Assembly: GCF_014899185.1 (NCBI RefSeq)
Contig: NZ_CP045201.1
Coordinates: 4,255,501 to 4,319,500, forward strand
Origin: Pseudooceanicola spongiae
GTDB taxonomy: Bacteria; Pseudomonadota; Alphaproteobacteria; Rhodobacterales; Rhodobacteraceae
DNA: 64,000 nucleotides
Direction: 5' to 3'
The first letter of the stretch is position 1. Every line of letters starts with the position of its first letter. The position numbers and the translations under genes are program-made. The notes under the pieces are model-generated. The model searched no databases. It was not told the DNA's origin and saw only the letters and a list, made by a program, of their open reading frames with translations. This document shows, in pieces, positions 30,741-35,868 of the stretch.

Positions 30741-30779
30741 GATTTGTGATCACACGCAAAAAAGGTGTGATCACAAATC
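30741..30779. promoter_or_regulatory. paired TGTGATCACA operator (sucCD)
   Basis: A perfect 15-bp inverted repeat (30741-30755 and 30765-30779) with a 9-base A-rich spacer. Each arm contains the 10-bp palindrome TGTGATCACA (30745-30754 and 30766-30775), so two self-complementary sites lie 21 bp apart centre to centre. The same pair at the same spacing occurs before sdhC (35720-35750). This points to one regulator controlling both. Confidence 0.75.
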
Positions 30780-30936
30780 CTGCGGGCTGGGCATAAAAGC
30801 GCCGGGACAGGGCGTGCGGGCGAGTCGGGTTAACGACATTGGTCGCGGCGCCAGAGACGGCGGAGGGTATGGGCGAGGGCATTGTCATACCGAAGAGGTG
30901 GGGAGCAAAAGGGCCCCGTGCCATACCGCAGACGCA

Positions 30937-30962
30937 AAAAAGGCGCCCGGAGGCGCCTTTTT
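30937..30962 (-). terminator. intrinsic terminator of mdh
   Basis: A perfect 11-bp stem: AAAAAGGCGCC (30937-30947), loop CGGA, GGCGCCTTTTT (30952-30962). On the minus strand the T-run follows the stem. It lies 21 bp past the mdh stop and separates mdh from the sucCD promoter. Confidence 0.93.
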
Positions 30963-30983
30963 CTCAGATCTGTCCAGCGTGGC

Positions 30984-31946
30984 TTATGCCAGCGAGGAGT
31001 CGATGGCCTTGCAGGCTTCGACCAGGCCTTTGACGGCCTCGACGGATTTGTCGAACATGGCTTGTTCGTCTTTGGTCATCTTGATCTCGACAACTTTCTC
31101 GACGCCACCGGCGCCGATCACGGTCGGGACGCCGACATACATGCCTTTGAGGCCAAGCGCGTTTTCAACGTAGGCCGCGCAGGGCAGCACGCGCTTCTGG
31201 TCTTTCAGGAAGGCTTCGGCCATTTCGATGGCCGAAGTGGCGGGAGCGTAGAAGGCCGAGCCGGTTTTCAGAAGGCCAACGATTTCAGCGCCGCCATCAC
31301 GGGTGCGCTGGATGATCGCATCCAGTTTTTCCTGCGTGGTCCAGCCCATTTCCACCAGATCCGGCAGCGGGATGCCCGCAACGGTCGAGTAGCGCGACAG
31401 CGGCACCATGGTGTCGCCGTGGCCGCCCAGAACGAAAGCGGTGACGTCCTTCATGGAGACCTGGAATTCCTCGGCGAGGAAGTGACGGAAGCGTGCGGAA
31501 TCGAGCACACCCGCCATGCCGCAGACTTTGGAATGCGGCAGGCCGGAGAATTCACGCAGCGCCCAGACCATCGCGTCGAGCGGGTTGGTGATGCAGATGA
31601 CGAAAGCGTCGGGGGCGTTGTCGCGAATGCCTTCGCCGACCGACTTCATGACTTTGAGGTTGATGCCGAGCAGGTCATCACGGCTCATGCCGGGTTTGCG
31701 CGGCACGCCGGCGGTCACGATGCAGACATCAGCGCCAGCGATATCAGCGTAGGACTGGGTGCCCTTGAGCTTGGCGTCGAATTTGGCAGACGGGCCGGAT
31801 TCGGCGATGTCGAGGGCCTTGCCCTCGGGGGTGCCTTCCGAAATGTCGAAAAGAACAACGTCACCAAGTTCTTTCAGGGCTGCGAGATGGGCGAGCGTGC
31901 CGCCGATCTGGCCCGCGCCGATGAGGGCAATCTTGGGTCTGGCCAT
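30984..31946 (-). CDS. mdh: malate dehydrogenase
   Basis: A 320-aa LDH-like malate dehydrogenase that interconverts malate and oxaloacetate with NAD. Seen: the dinucleotide fold GAGQIGG at residues 10-16, the substrate-binding [19 protein letters not shown], and the catalytic His in [16 protein letters not shown]. The start at 31946 ([10 protein letters not shown]) has GGAGA about 9 bases upstream; longer in-frame extensions are not family-like. It is followed by a strong terminator, so it is transcribed separately from sucCD. Confidence 0.96.
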
Positions 31947-32272
31947 TTGGATATGTCTCCGGTCCGGTTGAAAACGTCGCGCATGGCGTAGGTCTTTTAG
32001 CCCAGCAGTGCAAGAGTGCGTCGCGTGAGAGAGGGGGGGCAGGGCCGAGAGGCCCGTTGAAAAGAGGCCCATCTTCAACGGGATGGACGTTTTGTAGGCG
32101 GGCCGGTCACAGGTTCGGCAGCCGCAGTGCAGGCGCTGCGTCGGCTCTGTTAGCGGCAACATAACGCCGGAGCGATTCTGAACGCTGTGGTTGAACGGCT
32201 GCGTCCCGAACTGGCGTGGGCGTCGCCTAACTCTCTTGGCCTGAGCCTTTCGCCGCTGCGACAGCCAGGGCG
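31947..32272 (-). promoter_or_regulatory. mdh leader and intergenic region
   Basis: 326 bp with no supported gene. A perfect 9-bp inverted repeat (CCCGTTGAA 32053-32061; TTCAACGGG 32074-32082) lies about 107-136 bp before the mdh start, and a run of seven G is nearby. The region also separates mdh from a small secreted-protein gene; promoter boxes could not be placed. Confidence 0.45.
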
Positions 32273-33764: not shown

Positions 33765-33808
33765 TGCGCCCAACGTGGTGGCAATTGACCCTGGCGTAGG
33801 AACCTCGC

Positions 33809-34360
33809 GTGGCACTGATCCTGATTGGCCTGATATTGTGGACCTGGCCCCACATGATGAAGGAATATACCCCCGGTCTGCGCGCACAGCAGTCGGAAAA
33901 GCTGGCGCGTCCGCTGGTGGCGGTGATCGCGCTGGTCGCCATCGTGCTGATGGTGATCGGCTACCGTTCGGCTGACGTGAGTCCGGTCTATGCGCCGCCC
34001 GTCTGGGGCCAGCACCTGAACAACCTGCTGATGGTCTTCTCGGTGCTGATGCTGGGCACGTCGCATTCCAAGTCGCGGCTGCGTGGCATGCTGCGCCACC
34101 CGATGTTCTTGGCCGTCATCCTCTGGGGTGTGGCCCACCTGCTGGTGCGCGGCGATGTGGCCGCTCTTCTGCTCTGGGGCGGCATGATCGTCTGGGCGGT
34201 GGCGGGCTGGATCGTGACCAATGCGCGCCATCCCGACTATATCCCTTATAGCGGTGGCAAACTGGCGGGCGACATTCGCCTTGCTGTCATCACCGTCGTC
34301 GTCTTTGTCGTGATCGTGCTGATCCACGGCTGGGTCGGCCCGAGCCCCCTTCCAATGTGA
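33809..34360 (+). CDS. NnrU family membrane protein
   Basis: A 183-aa protein with about five predicted membrane segments. The family signature is HLNNLLMVFSVLMLGTSHSKSRLRGMLRHPM and HPMFLAVILWGVAHLLVRGD, seen in NnrU proteins. NnrU is linked to nitric-oxide metabolism in denitrifiers, but no denitrification genes are visible here, so the role is uncertain. It starts at GTG (33809), 44 bp after mcl2, and is in the mcl2-mch transcription unit. Confidence 0.85.
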   Translation: MALILIGLILWTWPHMMKEYTPGLRAQQSEKLARPLVAVIALVAIVLMVIGYRSADVSPVYAPPVWGQHLNNLLMVFSVLMLGTSHSKSRLRGMLRHPMFLAVILWGVAHLLVRGDVAALLLWGGMIVWAVAGWIVTNARHPDYIPYSGGKLAGDIRLAVITVVVFVVIVLIHGWVGPSPLPM

Positions 34361-34367
34361 GACCAGA

Positions 34368-34571
34368 ATGAAACTGTACCGATTCCTCTCCGAAGACGAC
34401 ACCTCGGCGTTTTGCCATAAGGTCACCAAGGCGCTGAACGCCGGCTGGGCGCTGCACGGCGACCCGACCTATGCATTTGACGCGGCCAACGGCACCATGC
34501 GCTGCGGTCAGGCCGTGGTGAAGGAGGTGGAGGGCACCTACACACCCGACACCAAGCTGAGCGACCACTGA
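34368..34571 (+). CDS. DUF1737 small protein
   Basis: A 67-aa protein with the DUF1737 signature KVTKALNAGWALHGDPTYAFD and CGQAVVKEV. The start is MKLYRFLSEDDTSAFCHK. It begins 7 bp after the NnrU gene and ends in ATGA overlap with mch, consistent with translational coupling. Role unknown. Confidence 0.85.
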   Translation: MKLYRFLSEDDTSAFCHKVTKALNAGWALHGDPTYAFDAANGTMRCGQAVVKEVEGTYTPDTKLSDH

Positions 34572-35602
34572 TGGCCAAGACCAATCCCGGCCGGTTCTTT
34601 GAGGATTACACCGTAGGGCAGCAGATCCAGCACGCGGTGCCGCGCACCGTGACGGTGGGGGAGAGGGCGCTCTATCATGCTCTCTACCCGGCGCGACATG
34701 CGCTCTATTCCTCGGACGAATTTGCGCGCGGGTGCGGTCTGCCCGGGGCGCCGCTGGATGATCTGGCGGCGTTCCACATCGTCTTCGGCAAGACGGTGCC
34801 GGATATCTCGCTGAATGCCGTGGCCAATCTGGGCTATGGCGAGGGGCGCTGGCTGAAGCCGGCGTATCCCGGCGATACGCTGCGGGCGCGGTCAACCGTG
34901 ATCGGGCTGAAGCAGAACTCCAACGGCAAGACCGGCGTGGTTTACGTCCGCTCCGAAGGGCTGAACCAGCGCGACGAGCTGGTGATGAGCTTTTGCCGCT
35001 GGGTGATGGTGAAGAAGCGCGACGTCGAGGCCCCTGCGCCCGAGACTGTGGTGCCGGACCTCGCGCAGGCGATTGCGCCGGGCGATCTGGTGATCCCCGA
35101 AGGCCTTGATTTCACGAGCTATGATTTCGCACTGGCGGGTGAGGCGCATCGCTGGAGCGACTACGAGATAGGCGAGCAGATCGACCACGTCGACGGTGTG
35201 ACGATCGAAGACGCCGAGCATATGATGGCGACGCGGCTGTGGCAGAACACCTCGAAGGTGCACTTCGATGCCACTTTGCGCGCTGATGGACAGCGGCTGA
35301 TCTACGGCGGGCATGTGATCTCGCTCGCGCGGGCGCTGTCGTTCAACGGGCTGGCCAACGCGCAGATGATCGCGGGGCTGAATGCCGGGGCCCACGCCAA
35401 CCCCTGTTTTGCCGGAACCACGGTGCATGCCTGGTCCGAGGTGCTGGACAAGGCCGAGACCACGGCCCCCGGCGTCGGTGCGATCCGGCTGCGACTGGTC
35501 GCGCGCAGCGGCGGAGAGGCGTTCACCCTGAAGGACGCGGCGGGCCGGTATCTGCCCCACGTTCTGCTGGATCTGGACTACTGGGCGTTGATTCCGCTGT
35601 AG
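34571..35602 (+). CDS. mch: mesaconyl-CoA hydratase
   Basis: A 343-aa double MaoC-like dehydratase that hydrates mesaconyl-C1-CoA to beta-methylmalyl-CoA in the ethylmalonyl-CoA pathway. Seen: the N-terminal MAKTNPGRFFEDYTVGQ, GERALYHALYPARHALYSSDEFA and the second half's HVDATL/HFDATLRADGQRLIYGGHV. Length and order of segments match R. sphaeroides Mch. It is followed by the sdh operon; in R. sphaeroides the same mch-sdh order occurs. Overlaps DUF1737 (ATGA). Confidence 0.92.
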   Translation: MAKTNPGRFFEDYTVGQQIQHAVPRTVTVGERALYHALYPARHALYSSDEFARGCGLPGAPLDDLAAFHIVFGKTVPDISLNAVANLGYGEGRWLKPAYPGDTLRARSTVIGLKQNSNGKTGVVYVRSEGLNQRDELVMSFCRWVMVKKRDVEAPAPETVVPDLAQAIAPGDLVIPEGLDFTSYDFALAGEAHRWSDYEIGEQIDHVDGVTIEDAEHMMATRLWQNTSKVHFDATLRADGQRLIYGGHVISLARALSFNGLANAQMIAGLNAGAHANPCFAGTTVHAWSEVLDKAETTAPGVGAIRLRLVARSGGEAFTLKDAAGRYLPHVLLDLDYWALIPL

Positions 35603-35868
35603 GATTTCCCGCCTGGCCGGGGCGGTCACGACCTCCGCCCTGCGCAGATTGGCTGCAGAATCAGACGCAAAAACCTAGCAAATCAGTCGGATATGATGCG
35701 CGGAAAACTGCGCCTAATTTGTGATCACAGCATTATTTCTTGTGATCACAATTGCGAAAAGAAATGGTTGCTTGTGTCAAATTCTGTGCACTGCGGCATG
35801 GTGTGCGGATGACAAAGCGCTATTGTCTGGTACAAGACGACCCCAAGGGATTTCGGAAAGGACATGTG
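35603..35868 (+). promoter_or_regulatory. sdh promoter region
   Basis: 266 bp between mch and sdhC. It holds a paired TGTGATCACA operator (35720-35750) and AT-rich sequence downstream of it. An SD-like GGAAAGGAC precedes the sdhC ATG. I could not place the -35/-10 boxes with confidence. Confidence 0.6.
35720..35750. promoter_or_regulatory. paired TGTGATCACA operator (sdhCDAB)
   Basis: Two copies of the palindrome TGTGATCACA, at 35720-35729 and 35741-35750, centres 21 bp apart, identical to the pair before sucCD. They lie about 119-149 bp upstream of the sdhC start. The 11-base spacer is AT-rich. Confidence 0.75.

Follow-up and report, generated by a model that had tools for sequence, protein, structure and literature searches.

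Paired palindromes before sucC and sdhC in Pseudooceanicola spongiae: probable operators of an AkgR-type GntR regulator

What reads the two identical pairs of palindromes that precede sucC and sdhC in Pseudooceanicola spongiae? In a 64,000-nucleotide stretch of this genome (GCF_014899185.1, contig NZ_CP045201.1, positions 4,255,501 to 4,319,500; hereafter the window), the 10-bp palindrome TGTGATCACA stands twice upstream of the succinyl-CoA ligase genes (sucCD) and twice upstream of those for complex II (sdhCDAB). An earlier reading of the letters, the original prediction, proposed that one transcription factor coordinates both operons and left that factor unnamed. We put at roughly 0.83 the probability that the window pairs are operators, as predicted from sequence comparison, of a single AkgR-type regulator, a GntR-family protein with an FCD domain. 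The unnamed factor is in all likelihood an AkgR-type protein, and the protein that serves the pairs is most likely the GntR/FCD protein encoded ~0.75 Mb away (Table 1).

All four palindrome positions in the original prediction are exact, as is its centre spacing of 21 bp in both pairs. Measured from pair edge to start codon, the distances are 109 nt for sucC and 118 nt for sdhC. The 9/10 match that it placed inside sdhC, CGTGATCACA, is present with one mismatch, is unpaired and is taken as chance. Counted singly, sites with at most one mismatch number 5 in the window where 1.56 are expected, a count that 3 of 100 shuffles also attain; this enrichment was dropped as evidence, being too weak. 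Single TGTGATCACA sites are thus unremarkable and the pair is striking, because exact pairs with an 11-bp spacer (N11) are expected ~6e-7 times per 4.37 Mb by a mononucleotide estimate. The source genome (one contig of 4.37 Mb, 93.6% complete) was searched throughout, as the original prediction had suggested, and it holds no N11 pair beyond these two, even with up to three mismatches. Perfect TGTGATCACA places number 14 in the genome, against ~1.6 expected from base composition: four make up the two pairs, one lies immediately 5' of a GntR gene, and nine others are unpaired, seven of them within open reading frames and two outside according to a crude caller. Our guess is that the surplus of coding copies comes from Val-Ile-Thr codon runs.

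Conservation in sister species, which the original prediction named as a test, is readily seen. An exact pair at any spacing from 0 to 30 occurs in 188 of 295 genomes sampled from 294 genera of the family, two such pairs are present in the same-genus genome G192, and an N11 pair with at most three mismatches occurs in 258 of the 295. A hand count of the matches listed yields 75 distinct pairs, of which 69 are N11, five N10 and one N21. The pair precedes sucC in 27 of the 30 loci read first and sdhC in the other three. We also compiled promoters in which an N10-N12 pair with up to three mismatches lay within 300 nt, 48 unique ones for sucC and 22 for sdhC. Their N11 spacers (45 for sucC, 19 for sdhC) are A+T-rich in the middle and G/C-rich towards either end, and A is the base directly past the sucC pair in 92% of promoters and the next one in 96%. 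The reversed pattern, used as a control, was found in 0/295 genomes in the exact-pair search and in 3/295 (G036, G164, G270) in the N11 search with up to three mismatches. It contains CTAG, a tetramer scarce in many proteobacteria, and the true background may therefore be higher than this control shows; weight was put on spacing and gene context. Single TGTGATCACA copies exceed the base-composition expectation and lie mostly in open reading frames, which speaks for a chance or mobile repeat, but the exact pairs recur across the family with spacer sequences that differ, and sucC or sdhC lies downstream in 30/30 of the first-read loci, which makes such an origin barely credible. Paired TGTGATCACA is a conserved, predicted operator in the family, and the pattern points to succinyl-CoA ligase and complex II being widely controlled together there by way of this operator.

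So, which protein would bind these sites? The source genome has 44 GntR-domain matches, 40 of them above the cut-off. Twelve small genomes were searched: G090 has three GntRs and the pair, and G167 and G172 have neither a GntR over the cut-off nor a pair. We read 72 GntR proteins (35 of the 44 matches in the source genome, all in G090, G136, G281 and G164, six of seven in G069 and nine of ten in G019). One orthologue group is represented in the source genome, G090, G136, G281, G164 and G069, and is absent among the nine G019 matches read. PF00392 (GntR) and PF07729 (FCD) score above cut-off in 3/3 orthologues scanned, and also in a paralogue (L146). The orthologues usually carry a site of their own: five of the six group members have a perfect TGTGATCACA immediately ahead of the start codon, G281 being the one without. 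The palindrome's core, GTGATCAC, is found in 30/30 of the best-scoring family regulator loci, perfect in 29, with the site farther from the start in L156, and in 75 of the 80 best-matching named regulator loci (taken from 553 relatives), 68 of them perfect. The site lies 7-9 nt ahead of the first in-frame start in 61 of those 75. Both sets consist of the closest relatives and so flatter the own-site rule.

The regulator scores below the cut-off of its nearest NCBIfam model, NF008504 (84 vs 225 bits), its relatives in the PDB (best mcbR, 4p9f) give no clue to an effector, and a search of a phage collection returned 11 records, all below 60% identity and uninformative. The name comes from elsewhere. 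Rhodobacter sphaeroides has a GntR protein, RSP_0981, which we take to be AkgR. RSP_0981 has been predicted to control succinyl-CoA synthetase, succinate dehydrogenase and 2-oxoglutarate dehydrogenase (PMC4344238), and GTGATCAC was found among the binding sites of the activator AkgR (PMC6365646). Like the present system, the AkgR regulon has a GntR-family regulator and GTGATCAC in its target promoters. Its targets also recur here, at sucC or sdhC in every first-read locus, with 2-oxoglutarate dehydrogenase included only if sucCDAB is one operon. It differs in belonging to another species, and the likeness is drawn by family, motif and targets as published.

Regulator and pair also occur together. 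Orthologues were accepted at E < 1e-60, a cut-off set after seeing a gap between the weakest accepted hit (5.4e-70) and the strongest rejected one (9.4e-58); exact pairs and also N11 pairs carrying at most three mismatches counted as operators, and the cross-table was made by hand. Among the 295 family genomes, 261 have both, seven the regulator only, seven the pair only and 20 neither (odds ratio 107, P 1e-19). Restricted to exact pairs, the counts are 184, 84, 4 and 23 (P 6e-8). The genomes at least 90% complete include 20 without the regulator, four with an operator match and 16 without. Of the 27 genomes that lack a detected orthologue, sucC was sought in 20 and found in 19, and its start was located in 16; 14 of these 16 have no GTGATCAC in the 400 nt upstream, and G019 and G114 keep the pair. 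The proposal that one transcription factor coordinates both operons therefore has good support: pair and spacing are identical at the two, the pair is kept at these operons across the family, and it co-occurs with one GntR orthologue group.

For the gene neighbourhood, seven genomes were picked that carry regulator and pair on one contig, so the linkage in them is by choice. Their order is ygjP-like gene, regulator, lpd-sucB-sucA-sucD-sucC and pair, with sucAB after sucCD in 7/7, mdh next after the pair in 6/7 and the core 5' of the regulator in 6/7; the regulator is 6.4 kb from lpd in G013, and a second pair is present in 4/4 of the fetched stretches that reach sdhC. As a rule, linkage of the regulator to tricarboxylic acid (TCA) cycle genes was rejected: suc, sdh and mdh genes were found at 0/80 named regulator loci in flanks of up to 10 kb (both flanks nearly whole in 60/80), a search whose positive control, the regulator with its ygjP-like gene, succeeded in 80/80, and regulator and pairs are far apart in the source genome.

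Several observations weigh against an AkgR-type regulator acting at the pairs. Four of the seven genomes with a regulator and no detected pair are at least 96% complete. Conversely, seven regulator-negative genomes have a pair; in one of them, G209, it is a three-mismatch match away from sucC, and G114 (100% complete), G019 and G256 keep the pair at sucC. Perhaps these last three reflect gaps in assemblies of 210-320 contigs. On a sucC tree of 62 rows the regulator label needs eight changes, of which strong branches force only one, so the losses may not be independent. The own site is missing at the regulator of G063 (outside the 30) as well as of G281, and the core is missing in 5/80 named loci. 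The regulator lies on the lpd side in the seven fetched genomes and in G090, versus the sdh side for RSP_0981 in the R. sphaeroides cluster, a placement by locus-tag number only. Pairs also occur elsewhere: before fumC (G042), before a TauE-like gene (N21, G136) and, with one mismatch, inside an open reading frame (G045). Finally, promoter boxes past the pairs score no better than shuffles (mean scores 12.98 vs 13.40 for sucC, 13.23 vs 13.18 for sdhC, with shuffle means reaching 13.73). Only the sdhC boxes cluster, with 7/22 at 81 nt past the pair and three more at 82, where shuffles give at most three per position, and this may be due to relatedness.

Could another GntR protein be the reader? 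A paralogue of the type of G000:C1:3358333-3358941 (L146/L142), or several GntRs together, might read the pair, and we consider this improbable. The paralogue likewise has GntR and FCD domains; the nine G019 matches read include only this type, in a genome with an exact pair at sucC; and G440 carries a GTGATCAC pair ahead of another GntR, in a GntR-SDR unit, so that the motif is shared among relatives. But the AkgR type is present and the paralogue absent (helix-turn-helix judged by eye) in G090, G136, G281 and G164, three of which (G090, G136 and G164) have the pair, and 0/14 perfect TGTGATCACA places in the source genome adjoin the paralogue gene.

The AkgR-type protein and its paired operator were also sought outside the family. 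In a class-wide sample of 289 genomes (four family members and 285 others, same E cut-off), the orthologue is found in 4/4 family members and 0/285 others, where the best hit reaches 3.8e-51. The pair core (GTGATCAC-N10 to N14-GTGATCAC) is likewise in 4/4 family members, and in 4/285 others: G308 and G440, which belong to one genus, and G495 and G310, where it lies within open reading frames. The two congeners, of another family, have GTGATCAC pairs spaced 21-22 bp (L323 in G440, L322 in G308), and the G440 pair is followed by a GntR other than the orthologue and then by an SDR gene, as though that protein too used the paired layout.

How might an AkgR-type regulator act from such sites? One dimer would occupy each 10-bp palindrome, and we infer side-by-side binding of two dimers because the spacing is rigid at 20-21 bp. 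Placed two helical turns apart, the dimers would form a complex upstream of the promoter that activates sucCD(AB) and sdhCDAB together, and one dimer alone, where the regulator gene starts, would repress regulator synthesis. In 36/48 sucC promoters the distance from pair to start codon is 105-112 nt (full range 95-153 nt), and in the 22 sdhC promoters it is 106-190 nt, positions compatible with activation, although the promoters themselves could be placed only loosely. This position and the published role of AkgR as an activator favour activation, with two dimers on the same face of the DNA, and the single site at the regulator's start favours autorepression. A more speculative reading is that arrangement rather than sequence may set the sign of regulation throughout the family, one GntR dimer activating only from pairs spaced exactly two turns (suc, sdh and once fumC) and repressing from the single site on its own start codon.

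A repressor operator, in which the pair blocks suc and sdh transcription, is an unlikely alternative to such activation, if less far-fetched than a second GntR reader. Many GntR proteins repress, the lone site where the regulator gene begins resembles autorepression, and the loose placing of the suc and sdh promoters leaves room for it. However, the distances from pair to start codon would be far for a steric block if the leaders are short, and AkgR is called an activator (PMC6365646).

The palindrome itself invites comparison with other families of regulators. Its TGTGA and TCACA resemble CRP half-sites, which counts towards a CRP/FNR-family protein. CRP half-sites are 6 bp apart, and the CRP/FNR spacer is 4-6 bp. 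Here the two are contiguous (spacer 0), so the half-site spacing is not that of CRP/FNR. The other candidate of this kind is the LacI-family protein CceR, which we presume to be RSP_1663. For CceR and PckR, predictions in alphaproteobacteria name sdh or mdh-suc operons as targets, the same operons as here; the two differ by their LacI family and their motif (PMC4344238, PMC4052901). For RSP_1663, the motif is given as [A/G/T]GTT N6-8 AAC[A/C/T] (PMC4344238). A CRP/FNR or CceR site is accordingly very improbable.

The AkgR regulon is already known, and our finding is most likely a member of it in another species. Two features seem new, the 21-bp spacing to which the pairs hold so strictly and the lone copy at the gene for the regulator itself: neither the fixed pair nor the site at the regulator start is mentioned in the parts of the AkgR descriptions available to us, and the paired two-turn layout was not found in the literature searched, which did not cover the main AkgR paper (Imam 2015 mBio). 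The strong operator at sucC and sdhC now has a likely factor proposed for it, and the reason for keeping two sites at a fixed 21 bp becomes testable. Other GntR systems share parts of the pattern. For the GntR-like PS417_07240 of a deoxyribonate cluster in Pseudomonas simiae, a GTGATCAC palindrome occupies -47 to -40 relative to the gene itself; this system differs in governing a catabolic cluster, in having one site described and in a regulator reported to be 32% identical to AkgR (PMC6365646). In Shewanellaceae, control by the GntR protein PdhR extends to TCA genes including sdhCDAB, comparable by description, and it differs in lineage and in its response to pyruvate (PMC5343134).

Paracoccus denitrificans has TCA genes outside the CceR regulon, and other control has been suggested (PMC11323563). 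It has an AkgR-type regulator with its own site. In L334 the regulator, at ~20004-20606, is 75.5% identical, a perfect site lies near 19956 just 5' of it, and the replicon that carries the gene, 1.73 Mb long, is filed as a plasmid.

Some pairs and sites fall outside the usual arrangement. The fumC pair of G042 has one mismatch, with 10-mers at 1293-1302 and 1314-1323 of L316 (G042:C16:228292-228322), and carries the operator on to the next TCA step; fumC was named by sequence reading. As a regular third target fumC was rejected, since the pair occurs only at G042 among 24 fumC loci parsed (of 28). The N21 pair of G136 was set aside as support for helical phasing, as it precedes a TauE-like gene, also named by sequence reading. 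At three places a third, degenerate site lies in register 21 bp past the pair (G197:C6:255077-255107, G125:C13:509134-509164 and G222:C44:25665-25695), which suggests triple arrays at some loci.

Table 1. Sites and genes at the two operons (window positions), with the candidate regulator
Feature	Position	Strand	Basis or remark
Palindrome TGTGATCACA, proximal site of sucC pair	30745..30754	.	pattern match
11-bp spacer of sucC pair	30755-30765		
Palindrome TGTGATCACA, distal site of sucC pair	30766..30775	.	pattern match
Palindrome TGTGATCACA, distal site of sdhC pair	35720..35729	.	pattern match
11-bp spacer of sdhC pair	35730-35740		
Palindrome TGTGATCACA, proximal site of sdhC pair	35741..35750	.	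pattern match
CGTGATCACA, one-mismatch copy within sdhC, unpaired	36063..36072	.	taken as chance
sucB (E2), probable downstream part of sucC operon	23130..24635	-	open reading frame; sequence reading and synteny
sucA (2-oxoglutarate dehydrogenase E1), probable downstream part of sucC operon	24642..27602	-	open reading frame; sequence reading and synteny with relatives
sucD, succinyl-CoA ligase alpha	28555..29436	-	NF004230, 459.6 bits (cut-off 336)
sucC, succinyl-CoA ligase beta	29442..30635	-	NF001913, 593.5 bits (cut-off 370)
mdh, other side of sucC pair	30984..31943	-	NF004863, 472.2 bits (cut-off 283); start picked within longer open reading frame
sdhC	35869..36258	+	TIGR02970, 106.4 bits (cut-off 52.3)
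sdhD	36273..36644	+	TIGR02968, 44.4 bits (cut-off 41.8); start at internal ATG, scan covered 36255-36644
sdhA	36660..38465	+	TIGR01816, 918.1 bits (cut-off 727.35)
sdhB	38476..39258	+	NF004616, 382.7 bits (cut-off 228)
AkgR-type GntR/FCD regulator (candidate), outside window	G000:C1:3536672-3537313	-	~0.75 Mb from pairs

The NCBIfam matches of sucC, sucD, sdhC, sdhD, sdhA and sdhB are all above cut-off. Directly upstream of the sdhC pair lies a gene at 34571-35602, presumably a mesaconyl-CoA hydratase (MaoC-like), which is kept beside sdh in several relatives.

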